From IMG/VR virus record IMGVR_UViG_3300006735_000064, positions 1-45,403 of that record: a stretch of 45,403 bases of DNA. The stretch is one strand, 5' to 3'. The stretch comes from a virus. The translations under genes were made by a program, and so were the position numbers. The notes under the pieces are model-generated. The model worked only from the letters and a program-made list of their open reading frames with translations, had not been told where the DNA came from and ran no database searches. Positions 5,581-32,300 of the stretch are shown here, piece after piece. Numbering within the stretch: the stretch's first letter is position 1; each line of letters opens with the position of its first letter.

Positions 5581-5753
5581 TGATTAAAGAACAAGATTAT
5601 ATGTCAAGTGATGTGTGGAAAAGAAATATTCCACCAGTCAGTAACTATAAACGTGGTAGTGCCTATAATCAATTTGGTATGTGGGTGATGTGGATTTACT
5701 ATATCATAATACCTATGATGATAGTGAGAATGATATGGGATATAATCAAATGA
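5580..5753 (+). CDS. Small single-pass membrane protein (57 aa)
   Basis: Read from ATG 5580 to TGA 5751-5753. Polar N-terminal half, then one hydrophobic segment at about residues 36-54 (WVMWIYYIIIPMMIV), with Arg and Lys at the end. It is coupled by ATGA to the methyltransferase. A membrane-associated role fits the helix; nothing more specific is visible. Confidence 0.55.
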   Translation: MIKEQDYMSSDVWKRNIPPVSNYKRGSAYNQFGMWVMWIYYIIIPMMIVRMIWDIIK

Positions 5754-6670
5754 GAGACACAATTTTATATGGTGATTGTAGAGAGACCTTGTGTGGTTTC
5801 TTACCCAATTCAGCAAGAATGTGTGTCACATCTCCACCATATTACGGTTTAAGAGACTATGGTGGAGAAGATAATCAAATAGGACAAGAACAAAGTCCTG
5901 AAGAATACATACAACAATTAGTTGAAGTATTCAGACAAGTTAAGAATGTATTGACTGATGATGGTACATTATGGTTGAATATTGGTGACAGTTATTATAA
6001 CTATCGTCCTGGAAAAGGACAAGCATTAGTACAACAAACTGTATCAAATAATAAACAAGATTTACCAGACAAATGTGCTAAACGTGCTAATAAATTAGAA
6101 GGACTAAAAGAGAAAGATCTCATAGGTATTCCATGGATGTTAGCATTTGCATTACGCAATGATGGTTGGTATTTAAGACAAGATATTATATGGCATAAAC
6201 CTAATCCAATGCCTGAAAGTGTGAAGGATAGATGTACAAAATCACATGAGTATATCTTCCTCTTAAGTAAGAATAAGAAATACTATTATGACAATGAAAG
6301 TATCAAAGAACCAGCAAAAGATTGGGGTACAAGAGATAGAACTAACGGCAAGTATCATAATAAAGGTACAGGATTACAACCACATTCAGGACTGAATAAG
6401 AGTTATCCAACAAAGAATAAACGATCAGTCTGGAGTATAACTAACAAACCATATAAAGGTAGTCACTTTGCAACATTTCCACCTGATTTGATTGAACCAT
6501 GTATTAAAGCAGGTAGTCAACCCAATGATATTATACTAGATCCTTTTATGGGTTCAGGTACAACTGCAATGGTAGCAAAATCACTAGGTAGAGACTACAT
6601 AGGATGTGAATTACATGAAAACTATCAACCATTAATACATAAACGTATTGGTATCCACAATTACACATGA
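5750..6670 (+). CDS. DNA methyltransferase, N4-cytosine/N6-adenine type (beta-class)
   Basis: Would transfer a methyl group from S-adenosylmethionine to an exocyclic amine of cytosine or adenine in DNA. Catalytic motif IV, TSPPYYGLRDYG, is at residues 27-38, and the SAM-binding motif I, DPFMGSGTT, near the C-terminus at 264-272; this order defines the beta class. Between them lies a conserved-looking core (IPWMLAFALRNDGWYLRQ). TSPPY is commonest in N4-cytosine enzymes but does not settle the target base. I start at ATG 5750 (306 aa), overlapping the upstream TGA; an in-frame GTG at 5681 is unlikely since MRDTILYGDC is a typical enzyme start. No restriction gene is adjacent, so it is probably an orphan that protects or marks phage DNA. 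Confidence 0.9.
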   Translation: MRDTILYGDCRETLCGFLPNSARMCVTSPPYYGLRDYGGEDNQIGQEQSPEEYIQQLVEVFRQVKNVLTDDGTLWLNIGDSYYNYRPGKGQALVQQTVSNNKQDLPDKCAKRANKLEGLKEKDLIGIPWMLAFALRNDGWYLRQDIIWHKPNPMPESVKDRCTKSHEYIFLLSKNKKYYYDNESIKEPAKDWGTRDRTNGKYHNKGTGLQPHSGLNKSYPTKNKRSVWSITNKPYKGSHFATFPPDLIEPCIKAGSQPNDIILDPFMGSGTTAMVAKSLGRDYIGCELHENYQPLIHKRIGIHNYT

Positions 6671-7323
6671 CATTAGCATTAGAACTTAAAGAGGGTACGA
6701 AAGTATCACATTCAGCAGCAGAGAATACAAAGTTTGTATCATCATTTTTAAAAGGTGTAGTATCAAGAGATAACTACAAACAATTAACTGCTAACTTCTA
6801 TTTTGTTTATCGTGCAATGGAAGAAGAAATAGAAAAACTAGATGATTTTCCACTCCATGATAAACTACTCAATCGTACTAACAAACTAGAACAAGATCTA
6901 CGATACTATTATGGTGTCATGTGGAGAGATAAGATAGAACCATCTCAAGCAACAAAGAACTATGTTAAAAGAATACAAAATATAGAACCATATCTATTAG
7001 TTGCTCATCATTATACAAGATACATGGGTGATCTATCTGGTGGACAAATACTATCTAACATTGCTAAAAATGCACTCAATCTAACAACTGAAGGTCTCAA
7101 ATTCTATGAGTTTGATATACCTAACATGAAAGAATACAAAGATAAGTATAGACAATCACTCAATGATTTAAACATGAGTGATGTACAAACAAGCATGTTA
7201 ATAGATGAGGCGAATTATGCCTTCAAATTAAATATGTTATTGTTTGATGAATTACAAGGTAATCCCATCAAATCAATTGTCAAGGTGCTATACTCTTATC
7301 TTAAAGAACGATTTAAAAGATAG
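6667..7323 (+). CDS. ho1: Heme oxygenase
   Basis: Opens the heme ring using reductant and O2 to give biliverdin, CO and iron; in cyanophages this feeds bilin synthesis in the infected host. At 218 aa it matches the bacterial/cyanobacterial HO-1 size. The probable proximal heme ligand is His15 in SHSAAENTKF, and the distal helix carries YMGDLSGGQ at about residues 119-127. The start ATG overlaps the methyltransferase stop, so both are on one transcript. No bilin reductase (pcyA or pebS type) is visible in the window. Confidence 0.95.
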   Translation: MTLALELKEGTKVSHSAAENTKFVSSFLKGVVSRDNYKQLTANFYFVYRAMEEEIEKLDDFPLHDKLLNRTNKLEQDLRYYYGVMWRDKIEPSQATKNYVKRIQNIEPYLLVAHHYTRYMGDLSGGQILSNIAKNALNLTTEGLKFYEFDIPNMKEYKDKYRQSLNDLNMSDVQTSMLIDEANYAFKLNMLLFDELQGNPIKSIVKVLYSYLKERFKR

Positions 7324-7331
7324 TCAATACA

Positions 7332-7829
7332 ATGTCACAAATTGAAATAATTGATGACTATCTACCACAAGATATATTCAATAAAATACAAGAACTATTG
7401 CTATCAGGAGGATTTCCATGGTTTTACAATGATTATATTGTAGAACAAACTCCTATTAATTATCAATTTGTACATACATTTAAACCTGACTCTCCTTATA
7501 CTCAACTGATTACACCACTATTTGTTAAGATTAAACCAAAAGAGATAATGAGATGTAAATTAAACTTACGTCCTATTACTCAACAACCTGAACAATCACC
7601 CTATCATATAGATCAAACAAAATACCCAAAGTATAAGATAGCAATATACTATATTAATACTAACAATGGTTATACTATCTTTGAACATAACAAACAACAA
7701 GTACAATCTAAAGCAAATAGAATATTAATATTTGATGGTCATTTACGTCATGCTGGTGTCTCATCTACTGATACTAAACGTAGAGTAGTATTAAATCTTA
7801 ATTACATGGAGGAATTATGGAAGTCATAA
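7332..7829 (+). CDS. 2-oxoglutarate/Fe(II)-dependent oxygenase-like protein
   Basis: 165 aa. The double-stranded beta-helix iron triad is readable: His92 and Asp94 in YHID, and His140 in GHLRHAG. A basic residue suited to binding 2-oxoglutarate follows at about 150 (TKRRVVLNLNY). Such small enzymes are frequent in cyanophages; substrates are mostly unknown, and hydroxylation of a protein or small molecule is the general expectation. It starts 8 nt after ho1, and its 3' end carries GGAGG that serves the next gene. Confidence 0.8.
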   Translation: MSQIEIIDDYLPQDIFNKIQELLLSGGFPWFYNDYIVEQTPINYQFVHTFKPDSPYTQLITPLFVKIKPKEIMRCKLNLRPITQQPEQSPYHIDQTKYPKYKIAIYYINTNNGYTIFEHNKQQVQSKANRILIFDGHLRHAGVSSTDTKRRVVLNLNYMEELWKS

Positions 7830-8011
7830 TACAACCCGATCATACACCCTACCTATACAATGATGATTACATGACAGTACATTTAACAAGTGAACAAATA
7901 AGATCTATTAAACAACTAATAGACTATGAACAACTATATGAAACTAATACAAATACTAATGAGTATTGGAATAACATCAGGAGACAATTAGATGAAGATA
8001 GACAAACATAA
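7817..8011 (+). CDS. Small hypothetical protein (64 aa)
   Basis: Start ATG 7817 has GGAGGAA just upstream and overlaps the oxygenase gene by 13 nt. Short beta N-terminus, then a helical region (LTSEQIRSIKQLIDYEQLYE) and an Asn/Thr-rich segment. Function unknown. Confidence 0.6.
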   Translation: MEVIIQPDHTPYLYNDDYMTVHLTSEQIRSIKQLIDYEQLYETNTNTNEYWNNIRRQLDEDRQT

Positions 8012-8204
8012 CGATTCAATTCAAGAACTATATGATTACTTAATGAATGAATTACATGGTATAACTACATCATTAAATGGTAAATTAACAACATATACTA
8101 TATCAAACTCATCAGGTGACAACTATAAAAGAATACAAATAGATTATGACTTTCACTCCAAATCTCCGCTAGACATACACCCTAGTGATACCAAGGCATC
8201 ATAA
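7992..8204 (+). CDS. Small hypothetical protein (70 aa)
   Basis: ATG 7992 overlaps the previous gene by 20 nt. Helix (SIQELYDYLMNELHGI), then a beta-like segment with Ser/Thr. Last gene of the methyltransferase/ho1 operon: inverted repeats begin 7 nt after its stop. Function unknown. Confidence 0.55.
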   Translation: MKIDKHNDSIQELYDYLMNELHGITTSLNGKLTTYTISNSSGDNYKRIQIDYDFHSKSPLDIHPSDTKAS

Positions 8205-8210
8205 GAACAC

Positions 8211-8244
8211 GTTTTCCACAGGTTAACACCAAATTGTGGAAAAC
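8211..8244 (+). repeat. 10-bp perfect inverted repeat made of two DnaA-like boxes
   Basis: GTTTTCCACA (8211-8220) and TGTGGAAAAC (8235-8244) are exact reverse complements separated by 14 nt. Each arm contains TTTTCCACA, the DnaA-box form reported for cyanobacteria. It could also act as a hairpin at the end of the upstream operon, but no T-run follows. Confidence 0.6.
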
Positions 8245-8248
8245 TCTA

Positions 8249-8296
8249 AATGATTAGAAATGTATTAAAAAATATAGTATTAGTGTACTAATCATT
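8249..8296 (+). repeat. 9-bp perfect inverted repeat in the intergenic region
   Basis: AATGATTAG (8249-8257) and CTAATCATT (8288-8296) are exact reverse complements around a 30-nt AT-rich centre. It lies directly after the DnaA-box pair. It may form a cruciform or bind a dimeric protein. Confidence 0.5.
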
Positions 8297-8300
8297 AAGA

Positions 8301-8423
8301 ATGTACGGAGACTATGTTGTCCTAGCGTGGTCTCACCCGATTGTCAACGTCTTGTGTGGAACTTCAGAAATTGGCACAGGGGACTTGACAAAAACTGGGG
8401 TTTCTGGTATTATAAGAAAGTGA
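8301..8423 (+). CDS. Possible 40-aa ORF in a structured, higher-GC patch
   Basis: ATG 8301 to TGA 8421-8423 encodes MYGDYVVLAWSHPIVNV and so on. It has no clear ribosome site, and its stop lies beyond a promoter (8385-8413) and inside a hairpin. The same bases form inverted repeats (8308-8312 with 8330-8334; TTGTCAA 8341-8347 with TTGACAA 8385-8391), so a structural or regulatory role competes with coding. Weak call. Confidence 0.2.
   Translation: MYGDYVVLAWSHPIVNVLCGTSEIGTGDLTKTGVSGIIRK
8385..8413 (+). promoter_or_regulatory. Strong sigma70-type promoter for the gene at 8454
   Basis: Perfect TTGACA (8385-8390), 17-nt spacer and TATTAT (8408-8413; TATAAG overlaps at 8411). Predicted transcription start is about 8420, inside the hairpin at 8417-8436. 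Confidence 0.6.
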
Positions 8424-8439
8424 GAAAACTCACTTTTTT
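8417..8439 (+). terminator. Hairpin with T-run at the transcript start: attenuator or 5' stability stem
   Basis: AAAGTGAG (8417-8424) pairs with CTCACTTT (8429-8436) around AAAA, then TTTA. In isolation it is an intrinsic-terminator shape for transcripts coming from upstream. Relative to the promoter at 8385 it would form at the very 5' end of the RNA, where it is too early to terminate that transcript. Confidence 0.5.
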
Positions 8440-8453
8440 AAAAAACTCAATAA

Positions 8454-8744
8454 ATGAGATTTTTAAATAAATCACTTTTTATAAAAACCATGTTATTAAA
8501 GGAAAGAGTATTTAAGGACTTTGATAGTTCTGCTATTGAATCGATTACTTTTACTCAACCAATTGTCAAAATTGTGTGGAAAACATCAACAAAAGAGTAT
8601 AATTACTCTGTTATAGACACTAATTTCGAACAATTAGTCGAAAAAAGTGTTAAAAACAGTGAATCTATTGGTAAATTAGTAAATATTGCAATAAAAGAGA
8701 ATAAAATACAAATAATAGAAGATTTATCTACTATTAATAAATAA
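8454..8744 (+). CDS. Hypothetical protein, possibly KTSC-like (96 aa)
   Basis: ATG 8454 follows a strong promoter. The middle (VKIVWKTSTKEYNYSVID) followed by SESIGKLVNIAIKE resembles the pattern of small KTSC-type domains (strand, Y-x-Y turn, helix, S-x-G, N-x-x-I). That resemblance is weak and no catalytic residues are implied. A DnaA-like box lies inside the gene (8575-8583). Lys-rich and AT-rich relative to the following genes. Confidence 0.6.
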   Translation: MRFLNKSLFIKTMLLKERVFKDFDSSAIESITFTQPIVKIVWKTSTKEYNYSVIDTNFEQLVEKSVKNSESIGKLVNIAIKENKIQIIEDLSTINK

Positions 8745-8764
8745 TAAGTACTCAAATTATAGTA

Positions 8765-8917
8765 ATGGCAAGGAAACAACGTAAATTGCACACTAATAAC
8801 AATGATCATCTAATTGAAGATGAGTTAGAGACATATAGTCACTCAATCTCCAATTATAATAGATCACATAAGAAGCAAGATAAGAAGTTTAAGTATAAAG
8901 AATACAATGGCGAGTGA
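8765..8917 (+). CDS. Small basic/charged protein (50 aa)
   Basis: Read from ATG 8765 to TGA 8915-8917. Basic start (MARKQRKLHTNNNDH), acidic centre, and a Lys-rich end (SHKKQDKKFKYKEY). It sits between two DnaA-like boxes (8575 and 8927). Nucleic-acid contact is plausible by charge only. Confidence 0.5.
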   Translation: MARKQRKLHTNNNDHLIEDELETYSHSISNYNRSHKKQDKKFKYKEYNGE

Positions 8918-9039
8918 TTGAGTGGGTTTTCCACAGGACAGTTTATAAAGTGACCCAAATTGTTTCATAGTGTAACAAAATTCAGGAAATAGGTCTTATT
9001 TTTGTTAAAATTAGAGAGTTCAAACGTACAATCGTTTTT

Positions 9040-9426
9040 ATGCCTACTACTGCAACCAAGTCAACCAAAACCACAACTGGCACAAGGAAGACAAGGACTC
9101 GCAGAAGCACTGCCAAAAAGACACCAATCTCAAAAGCAGTCAAGTTATCCACAACCAAACCACAACCTGTGGAAAAACCTGTGGAAAACAAGGTTACCGT
9201 CACAACCTTTAAGAGTGGCAAGGCAGTTAAAAAGGTTACAACGCTCAAGCGTCCTTCAACTGCCCGTTTAATTAGTCCTTCTCGCTACATGCAAGATATT
9301 AAGACTCGTTGGATGATTCACAATTTTGAGATCCAAGAACTTATCAAGGATTTTAAGACAGGATTCAAAACAGTACAACCGTACCACGCCGAGGCAGTTA
9401 AAACAGTCAAAGCATGGACAGTCTAG
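9040..9426 (+). CDS. Basic, histone-H1-like-tailed hypothetical protein (128 aa)
   Basis: Residues 1-45 are rich in Thr, Lys, Arg and Ala (TRKTRTRRSTAKK), like disordered nucleic-acid-binding tails. Then comes the Pro/Glu/Val segment QPVEKPVENK, whose codons contain two DnaA-like boxes, and a more ordered C-terminal part (SPSRYMQDIKTRWMIHNFE). Its DNA is richer in C and G than neighbouring genes. It ends just before a clear intrinsic terminator, which supports this frame over the overlapping frame at 9002-9271. DNA binding is inferred from composition. Confidence 0.65.
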   Translation: MPTTATKSTKTTTGTRKTRTRRSTAKKTPISKAVKLSTTKPQPVEKPVENKVTVTTFKSGKAVKKVTTLKRPSTARLISPSRYMQDIKTRWMIHNFEIQELIKDFKTGFKTVQPYHAEAVKTVKAWTV

Positions 9427-9447
9427 CAACTGACTCCAAATTATCAC

Positions 9448-9472
9448 AAAGGCGTTACATACGCCTTTTTTT
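9448..9472 (+). terminator. Rho-independent terminator
   Basis: AAAGGCGT (9448-9455) pairs with ACGCCTTT (9461-9468) around TACAT, followed by more T residues. A textbook intrinsic terminator 22 nt after the stop of the basic protein gene. Confidence 0.9.
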
Positions 9473-9499
9473 ATTGCCCTAATCGTTTAGACTGTCCCT

Positions 9500-9682
9500 A
9501 TGAATCAATCAAACCTTAAAGAGTTTTTCCCTTCTCTCATTGAAAAGGGTTACACAGTTCAAGAGATCAACTCCAACTGTATGGCACATAAAAACAGAGA
9601 GGTTCCCGATGCTTTCAAGTCACGGTTTGCAACCTATCAGGAATACATCGAGGCAGTCATCGAATACTGTGACGGTCTCTAA
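9500..9682 (+). CDS. Small hypothetical protein (60 aa)
   Basis: Single gene bracketed by terminators (9448 and 9714). Helical N-terminus (MNQSNLKEFFPSLIEKGYT), then a YQEYIEAVIEYCDGL end. The sequence ACTGTCCCT occurs just before its ATG and again just after its stop. Function unknown. Confidence 0.65.
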   Translation: MNQSNLKEFFPSLIEKGYTVQEINSNCMAHKNREVPDAFKSRFATYQEYIEAVIEYCDGL

Positions 9683-9713
9683 ACTGTCCCTGAATTACAA
9701 CAGAATGTAACAG

Positions 9714-9736
9714 AAACCCCCAAAAGGGGTTTTTTT
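9714..9736 (+). terminator. Rho-independent terminator
   Basis: AAACCCC (9714-9720), loop CAAAA, GGGGTTT (9726-9732), continuing in T. A strong intrinsic terminator for the 9500 gene. Confidence 0.9.
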
Positions 9737-9741
9737 ATGTG

Positions 9742-9747
9742 TATAAT
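9742..9747 (+). promoter_or_regulatory. Probable -10 box for the gene at 9782
   Basis: Perfect TATAAT in the context TGTGTATAATAG, 35 nt before the ATG and just after a terminator. No recognisable -35; that position overlaps the terminator. Confidence 0.35.
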
Positions 9748-9781
9748 AGAAGAGTAAAGCAAACCGATTCGATTTCATTCT

Positions 9782-10129
9782 ATGAGAAAACTTGAACGTC
9801 AAATGAACTTCGCTCTTTCTAATAAGTCAGACTGGGCAGGATCAAACACTCAAGTCAATTTCAATGAGAGTACAAATTGCAGTCAGGTCTTCCTACATGG
9901 TCATCAAATTGCTACATTTGACCACTCAACGAGAGCATTAAAACTCAATTCTTGCGGATATGAGACAGTGACTACGAAGTCACGCCTTAATGCTTTACTT
10001 GAAGAGGTCAAATACGGGGCAAGAGTATTCCAAAAGAAATTTGAGTGGTTCGTTAGTTATAACGGACAAACAACAGATTTCATCGATGGAATGATACTAT
10101 TAGATGAAGATTCACTGCAAACTGTTTAA
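9782..10129 (+). CDS. Conserved-looking hypothetical protein (115 aa)
   Basis: Contains SQVFLHGHQIATFDH at about residues 34-48 and TTKSRLNALLEEV at about 63-75, a pattern I recall from uncharacterised proteins in cyanophages (start MRKLERQMN, then HGxxIATF). The rest reads as beta strands with a helix. Its own upstream TATAAT suggests separate transcription. Function unknown. Confidence 0.7.
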   Translation: MRKLERQMNFALSNKSDWAGSNTQVNFNESTNCSQVFLHGHQIATFDHSTRALKLNSCGYETVTTKSRLNALLEEVKYGARVFQKKFEWFVSYNGQTTDFIDGMILLDEDSLQTV

Positions 10130-29300: not shown

Positions 29301-32300
29301 CTGGAGGTAATATAACTTTCGTTGCATATCTTGGTTTTGGTACACAGAGATTCTCTGAATTTAATGAGAATGATTTCTTAATTACTGTTCATGATAAGGG
29401 TAGTTCAACTAGTGTTGAAACAGGAGATATTATTTACATCTCTCCAGATTTTGTAGAGACAAAGAATATTGCTGATCCAACATCTGGTTTATCATCAGGA
29501 AGTTTAACTTTAACCTTCCCAGAGAATCATTTTGGTACCAATGTTGCTAATTTCCCTAAACTTAAATTAACTGCAACATTAGAGATAAGTAAAGCAAAAC
29601 CAAAAACAAAGAATTCTGTAACTAATAAGAGAATTATTATTACTGCTGCTGGTGATCGAGTAATACCTTTGAGAGGTATTGATTATGATAGTGATAGCAC
29701 AGAATCTTATACTTATTCTGATGTTTATAAAGTTAAGTACATATATGAAGGATCTACATCCGCACCACCTACAGTTGATGTTAATGGTAATTTAGTTGTA
29801 GGTACTGATATAACACATAGATTTACTTTTGATGATGGGCAAAGAGATACATTCTATGATGTTTCTAGACTTGTATTAAAACCAGGATTCCAAGCACCAA
29901 CTGGTCAAGTTGTTGTTGCTTTTGATTACTTTGAACACACTCAAGGTGATTTCTCAACAGTTGATTCGTATGTTCATGAAGATGGTGTTATTGCTGATAA
30001 TGTTCCATCTTTCAACTCTACTGTTCATGGTATTGTTAATTTAAGAAATGTTATTGATTTCCGTCCTAAAGTAGATTCCACTGCTATCATTTCTGGTTTC
30101 CAAGATAATTCTATATTATCTCAAACTGAATATATCAACTTTACTGGTCCTGGTGGTTCTGTTTCTAGTACTCCAGCATCAAGTAAGTTACTTCCATATA
30201 CTGTTTCCTTTACAGAGTCACAGTATCTTGATAGGATTGATGGTGTATTTTTAAATAACAAAGGTAATTTTGTAATCAAGAAAGGTAATTCTTCATTAAA
30301 CCCATCTAAACCAGAGATGATTGAGGATGGTATTGCATTGTATTACATGTATATCCCTGCTTTTACTAGATCAAGTAAGGATGTGAGAATTATCCCTGTG
30401 GATAATAAGCGTTATACAATGAAGGATATTGGTAAACTTGAGAAGAGAATTGAAAGATTAGAATACTACACAACTTTAAGTATACTAGAGCAACAAGCAT
30501 TAAACATGCAAGTTAAAGATGCTCTTGGTATTGATAGAGTTAAGAGTGGATTTGTTGTTGATAATTATGAGTCACATAGTGCTGGTAATCTTAACTCCAT
30601 AGATTATAAGTGTTCTGTTGATTCACAGCAATCTGTTCTACGACCACAGGTAAAGGAAGATAGTTTTAAATTAACAGAAATTTATAGTAGAGATTATCAA
30701 AGAGATATTGCTGGATATGTTAATAATAACGATGTTGTTACTCTTCCATACACTGATATAGTTTATGCTCATAATGCATTTGCTACAAAAATTATTAATC
30801 CTAACCCATTTGTTGTTATACAATATCTTGGTGATGCTTCATTAAATCCTAATGTTGATCAATGGTATGATAGTACTGTTGCACCATTATTGACTGATAA
30901 TAATACTGGATTATTCTCTATATTCCTTAAAAAGGATACTACAGAAAGTTTCTCAAGTATATACAATTCGTTTGTAGTGAATTGGGTTGGTGTTAATAAA
31001 ACTTTCTATAATATAAATCCATTATCAGAAAGTAATTCCGATTCAGTATCATCTAGTGTTAACAATGCTTCTGTATCGAGTTCTTCTAATATTAGTCCTC
31101 AAAATAATGAAATAGCAAAAGGTGTTGGATATAAAACTGTTAACAATATTACTGTTGCAGATTCTTTAAGATTTTTCGCAAGATCTATTCCAGTTAAATT
31201 TGTTCTTAAGAGATTAAAACCAAAGACACAAGTTTATGTGTTTATGGAGCAAAGAAATATTGGTAGATGGGTATTATCAGATTCTAGATTTACTGGAGTT
31301 GCTGGTAATTCATTAACTTCATTTAATACACCTATCATCACAGATGAGTATGGTAATGCTAGTGGTATTCTTTTAGTTCCTGCAGGTAATCCTCCTAAAG
31401 AAAATACTACTTGGAGTGGAGATGTTAATCAGGTTCAATATGATGATACTTCAGAAGAAATACGATTCTCAACAGGTATAAAGACAATTAGATTCACTTC
31501 TAGTTCTACAGATTCAGATAAGAATTCTGTTGATGCTTATGCTGAAGTTAAGTTCTATGCAACTGGTATTTTACCAGAGAATCCTGCATCTATTATTTCT
31601 ACTGCACCAGCATTCTTCAAAGCAAATGAAGGTGTTCAGTTGATTGATAGTAATACTGAAAATATTTCTAGACCTAATCCACTTGCACAGACATTTAAAG
31701 TAGAAAACTTTGAAGGTGGTATGTTCTCTACTGGTGTAGACTTATTCTTCTCCAAGAAGAGTACTTCTATTCCTATAAGAGTTTATTTGAGTAATGTAGA
31801 TAGTGAGAAACCAGGAAAGTATATCTTACCTGGATCTGAAGTTACTTTATATCCAGATACATTCCTTAAAGTTTATTCTTCTGGAAATATAACATTAACA
31901 GTTGGAGAGAATATAACTGGTAGTAGATCACTTGCCATTGGACCTCTTTCCAAGGTATATGATAGAAATATGTTTGAGATATTACCTACTAGTGATGGTA
32001 GGATCTCTATTACTAACGAGCAAGTATATACATTTGTATTGAGTAACCATAATGGTACTTCATTCCAAGAAAATGAAGATCTTACTTTGAATAGTGTTAC
32101 ACAATATAATAATGCTAATAATGCAACAATTGGTTTAAAGATTGCTAAAGATGCTGGTAAGGTATCAGCACTAAATGTTACTACATTAGGTTCTGGTTAT
32201 GAAGGAGCAACTATTACAGTTGAGAGTCCACAATTACCTGGTGGTAGTAATGCTACTGGATCTGTTAAGGTATCTAATGGACAACTTTATCTAGCAGAAG

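Follow-up and report, generated by a model that had tools for sequence, protein, structure and literature searches.

Many T4-like cyanophages carry a conserved composite element in which exact copies of the cyanobacterial DnaA box are arranged with an AT-rich stretch, a phage-specific core and a promoter-like site. By a modest balance of probability, we take this element to be an early replication-initiation region that lies at the position of T4 oriE and would use host DnaA. Its organization suggests that these phages may borrow the host initiator at their replication origin. T4-like cyanophages rank with the most abundant viruses in sunlit ocean waters, and T4-type phages encode their own replisome. 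To our knowledge, the replication start of T4-like cyanophages is not established; we know of no T4 origin that uses DnaA and of no dependence on host DnaA in the T4 group.

The element was analysed in a stretch of 45,403 nucleotides (45.4 kb; the window), corresponding to positions 1 to 45,403 of the IMG/VR virus record IMGVR_UViG_3300006735_000064. The closest DNA relative is Marine virus AG-345-P14 (MH319765.1; hereafter P14), which is 96% identical and is placed in the Kyanoviridae. The window contains genes for heme oxygenase, DNA methylase, PAAR, gp25, gp6 and a gp7-like protein, some of these names being our presumptive assignments made by recognising the translation. Together with the identity to P14, the heme oxygenase, PAAR, gp25, gp6 and gp7-like genes support the initial annotation of the sequence as a T4-like cyanophage. 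The heme oxygenase gene (6667-7323), an auxiliary metabolic gene, shows approximately 50% identity to cyanobacterial enzymes.

The initial annotation had described seven DnaA-box-like sites, six of the form TTTTCCACA and one TTATCCACA, and all seven were found again at the same positions. These exact matches to TTWTCCACA fall within 977 bp (8212-9188), where the Poisson expectation is 0.04; the probability of at least seven is approximately 3e-14, or 1e-9 after correction for scanning the whole window. A comparison with shuffled sequence bears out the excess, with 10 copies in the window against 1.85 ± 1.34 in dinucleotide shuffles. When one mismatch was allowed there was no window-wide excess (21 versus 20), so the enrichment is carried only by exact boxes. 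The number of exact copies outside the cluster had been underestimated: there are three rather than one, at 5614 and 14694 (TTTTCCACA) and at 30397 (TTATCCACA), and box density outside the cluster is not equal to that within it. The inverted repeats attributed to the cluster are present (8212/8235, 9145/9168 and 8245-8257/8288-8300), as is the AT-rich stretch at about 8244-8300.

Features of the element and its surroundings in the window
Feature	Position	Strand	Remarks
DnaA-box-like TTTTCCACA, first pair	8212..8220	+	kept in P14; convergent partner 23 bp off
DnaA-box-like TTTTCCACA, convergent partner	8235..8243	-	23-bp convergent pair is the commonest cyanophage arrangement
AT-rich stretch, candidate unwinding element (inferred)	8244..8304	.	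13-bp inverted repeat 8245-8257/8288-8300
AATGTATTAAAAAATATA / AATGT motifs	inside 8244..8304	.	same motif in S-PM2 and S-CAM1
Conserved core TGTTGTCCTAGCGTG...TGTCAA	8315..8347	+	HMM match, E=7e-12
Sigma70-type promoter-like site TTGACA-17-TATTAT, TG before second hexamer	8385..8413	+	11/12 matches
Small gene phrog_4357, downstream of promoter	8490..8744	+	contains box 8575
DnaA-box-like TTTTCCACA inside small gene	8575..8583	-	kept in P14
DnaA-box-like TTTTCCACA between ORFs	8927..8935	+	kept in P14
ORF, basic Lys/Thr-rich 128-aa protein, phrog_27005	9040..9426	+	
DnaA-box-like TTATCCACA, second cluster	9145..9153	+	
DnaA-box-like TTTTCCACA, second cluster	9168..9176	-	23 bp from 9145, 12 bp from 9180
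DnaA-box-like TTTTCCACA, second cluster	9180..9188	-	within 9131-9254, no difference to P14

The boxes are kept in relatives. Over positions 7800-9800 (2,001 bp) the window and P14 differ at 133 sites, none of which falls in the 63 box bases, where about four would be expected, and all seven boxes are unchanged. Substitutions also flank, but do not touch, the TGTCAA of the core (8342-8347) and the TTGACA hexamer at -35, and the region 9131-9254, which holds the second cluster inside an ORF, shows zero differences. This cluster lies within the codons for KPQPVEKPVEN of the phrog_27005 ORF, and a 26-bp tandem within it (9164-9189) is identical to that of S-CAM1. The PVEKPVEN repeat of the same protein is encoded by tandem boxes. 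The promoter-like site in front of the small gene is, judged by sequence, the best among 33 such sites. A short hairpin, AAAGTGAG-AAAA-CTCACTTT, occupies 8417-8436, where the transcript from this promoter would start, and is possibly a 5' stabilising hairpin. The small gene itself has a homologue at the same place in S-CAM1; a search of viral contigs for its relatives found none.

Side-by-side comparison of relatives revealed a common order of box pair, AT-rich stretch, core and then, in most, a promoter-like site of the TTGACA-17-TATAAT type located 50-140 bp beyond the core. The core consensus is AATGT..TTGTaGTCTTAGCaCGC..cTAtC..TGTCAA (short form TTGTAGTCTTAGCACGC..TGTCAA), and the box pairs most often converge, with a spacing of 23 bp and positions -91/-68 relative to the core. 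There are two core subtypes, in which the spacing before TGTCAA differs by about one helical turn. In four complete genomes (S-PM2, S-RIM2, P-SSM7 and ACG-2014d) the core is single-copy, so that the element provides a precise, single-copy candidate site in many genomes. AT content is modestly raised, at 0.71-0.72 from the boxes to the core (0.72 at -60..-41) compared with approximately 0.64 in the flanks of 71 elements. The element gave no Rfam match above threshold and no consensus structure with RNAalifold on either strand, and a structured RNA was therefore ruled out; the element probably acts as double-stranded DNA. One core subtype could be read as a promoter on the opposite strand, where TGTCAA becomes TTGACA with TAAGAC at a distance of 17 bp. 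This reading was set aside because the two motifs are about 26-29 bp apart in the other subtype. We also disregarded the tRNA-Leu/Asn annotations over the S-PM2 element, since neighbouring ones overlap CDS and ARAGORN finds none. In that record (AJ630128, 507-1334 of the locus) a number of tRNA genes are annotated across CDS and the element, and the annotation looks doubtful.

Searches by blastn with the S-RIM2, S-PM2 and ACG-2014d elements matched 220, 56 and 70 phage records respectively, all of them cyanophages by name except for one marine single-cell virus in the Kyanoviridae. Among 18 cyanophage records whose annotation calls them complete or near-complete, most of them reached via gp25 or other conserved sequence and some picked by name, a box cluster is present in nine (S-CAM1, P-SSM7, P-TIM68, ACG-2014d, S-CAM8, S-RIM2, S-SM2, S-PM2 and Syn9). 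No cluster was found at the site in P-SSM2, P-SSM4, P-SSM5, P-TIM40, P-RSM6, S-MbCM7, ACG-2014f, S-N03 and Sf-FS3, nor in T4, which was scanned alongside. Boxes are absent from S-MbCM7, P-SSM4 and P-SSM2, and from a group of contigs that keeps the core; the box-less P-SSM4 retains both core and promoter. In contigs chosen via gp25 alone, boxes occur in only some and the core stands without boxes in some. Since boxes are missing from some core-bearing phages, they are not essential family-wide, and from these comparisons they look like a module that phages may acquire or lose while the core stays constant.

The spacing of the boxes was examined in a sample of at least 214 viral-contig loci with box pairs, the spacings having been made non-redundant. 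A period of approximately 10.7 bp was observed in both direct (n at least 197) and convergent (n at least 148) pairs, with a Rayleigh p of about 1e-30; the test assumes independent pairs, which related contigs are not fully, and the effect is nevertheless very large. Such a period is as expected for sites on one face of the helix, and the phasing is compatible with cooperative binding. Among the box-pair loci listed, the element HMM matches 76 of 214. These contigs were selected for having boxes, and box density near the core in this set is therefore conditional on that choice; box position played no part in the choice where the location with respect to gp6 or the set of complete genomes is concerned. 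In all 78 listed box-pair contigs with gp25, gp6 or gp7 the cluster lies upstream of gp6, at a distance of 2.4-10.6 kb, and in none is it downstream, where about 31% of the sequence covered in this count is located. The core is not recognisable in 31 of these 78 positioned loci. In the eight complete genomes where gp25 was mapped, the cluster is 2-8 kb upstream of that gene.

The likeliest binder of the boxes would be host DnaA. The 9-mer TTTTCCACA is the cyanobacterial DnaA box, as backed by DnaA-interaction assays (PMC4674748), and the initial assignment of the sites to this type is well supported: the cluster is conserved and helically phased, keeps one genome position and matches boxes at host dnaN/oriC loci exactly. 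Sufficient upstream sequence was available for 30 dnaN loci of Prochlorococcus and its family, and in 22 of them TTWTCCACA occurs at least once in front of dnaN. Three TTTTCCACA boxes are present in each of two Prochlorococcus loci, and a Synechococcus locus has eight copies of TTWTCCACA, some at 11/21/32-bp spacing. Prochlorococcus is said to be without DnaA boxes near dnaA (PMC4674748); in contrast to this reported absence, the Prochlorococcus boxes found here are near dnaN. No DnaA C-terminal (DNA-binding) domain was detected in 16 cyanophage records, which argues against a phage-encoded DnaA. The element model, run on the host dnaN loci, gave no match, and resemblance of the core to host oriC was rejected on this basis; the core is probably bound by a protein other than DnaA.

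The closest parallel in position is T4 oriE (79355), which precedes gp5.4 by 1.4 kb and gene 6 by 1.7 kb. Like the cyanophage element, this region (RepEA/RepEB) is upstream of gp5.4(PAAR)-gp6, is associated with an early promoter (that of the cyanophages being sigma70-type by its sequence only) and has short repeats conserved at the corresponding location among related phages. T4 oriE contains 12-nt repeats of unassigned role and is apparently early-promoter dependent (PMC3016281). It differs in that its repeats are evenly spaced 12-nt iterons rather than DnaA boxes, the cyanophage boxes being 9-mers that are phased but unevenly spaced, and in that it is located inside gene 5 and transcribed against it. 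The T4 stretch gave no match to the cyanophage core, and T4 lacks a box cluster. Cyanobacterial oriC at dnaN (Synechococcus 7942, Anabaena 7120 and Cyanothece 51142) shares the TTTTCCACA arrays and, in at least one host locus, the 11/21/32-bp spacing, whereas the phage element has its own core and promoter and no dnaN. The DnaA-assisted origins P1 oriR and pSC101 also have DnaA boxes beside an AT-rich stretch and replicon-specific sites. These replicons encode a Rep initiator with iterons, whereas no initiator gene is known for the phage element and the phage carries a complete T4-type replisome. A titration locus of the datA type resembles the element in being a DnaA-box cluster away from host oriC, but the phage boxes are tied in a fixed arrangement to the core and promoter.

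Taken together, the anatomy of the element and its synteny with T4 oriE favour a putative origin over decoy or promoter roles. According to this model, host DnaA would bind the box array cooperatively and help to open the AT-rich stretch. The early-promoter transcript, or DnaA-assisted loading, could then prime the first rounds of replication, and the phage would later switch to recombination-dependent replication. We are evenly divided on the broader proposal that lytic T4-type phages of marine picocyanobacteria start replication at a conserved origin opened by host DnaA, with a family-wide core read by another initiator and the boxes as an accessory module that is gained and lost. A turning point in GC skew, which had been suggested as a check, was not seen at the element in S-PM2, S-RIM2, P-SSM7 or ACG-2014d; this test is weak, as these genomes place almost every gene on the same strand, and a turning point is no strict requirement for a phage origin.

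The main rival is a DnaA-regulated early promoter, in which host DnaA would control transcription of the small genes downstream and play no part in replication initiation. The strong promoter-like site found beyond the core, in the window as in most relatives, is in keeping with this idea, and since P-SSM4 keeps core and promoter in the absence of boxes, the boxes may tune the promoter. However, the distance from the boxes to the -35 site downstream of them varies around 150-200 bp and several phages have a second cluster 0.5-0.9 kb downstream, an arrangement unusual for simple promoter control, and the position equals that of T4 oriE; we therefore regard a purely transcriptional role as rather unlikely. 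It is less easy still to see the boxes as a decoy that soaks up host DnaA and blocks host initiation as phage copies rise. Exact boxes in an obligately lytic phage, whose copies would multiply the sites during infection, are what such a decoy would show, but a genome usually has no more than two to eight boxes, at one site and in a fixed arrangement with core and promoter, and titration would call for no helical phasing and no fixed genome position. On account of this fixed architecture we consider a decoy improbable.

Two further explanations concern the sites themselves. A phage-encoded or other host protein could recognise TTTTCCACA with host DnaA uninvolved, and at least one other binding protein is indeed probable, given that the core is phage-specific and absent at host dnaN loci. 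As the binder of the boxes such a protein is a doubtful candidate, since the sequence matches the cyanobacterial DnaA box (PMC4674748) at all nine positions and is found again at host dnaN loci, in one of them at the 11/21/32-bp spacing, and the search for a DnaA DNA-binding domain in 16 phage records gave none. That the cluster arose by chance or from base composition is scarcely credible: the lack of a window excess with one mismatch is the one point in its favour, and chance clustering was rejected on the exact-box statistics (scan-corrected p ~1e-9), with conservation, phasing and the fixed position in 78 of 78 listed contigs pointing the same way. The origin reading, if true, links phage replication with a regulator of the host cell cycle. 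Synechocystis can reportedly do without DnaA (PMC4674748), and the element would offer a new view of the role of DnaA in cyanobacteria.

A search of the open-access literature found no report of DnaA boxes in T4-like cyanophages, and within that literature the array appears to be new. On how these phages start replication, a review (PMC2984593) mentions nothing beyond a single theta origin in Syn9, a prediction put forward in the Syn9 genome paper. A CCCTAACCTACAAAGGTT-like motif occurs near the box clusters of P-SSM7 (about 8550-8575 of locus L296), ACG-2014d (about 9810-9840 of L301) and P-TIM68 (about 9335-9355 of L297). A box pair is also present in two viral contigs of approximately 321 kb (L100 and L139).
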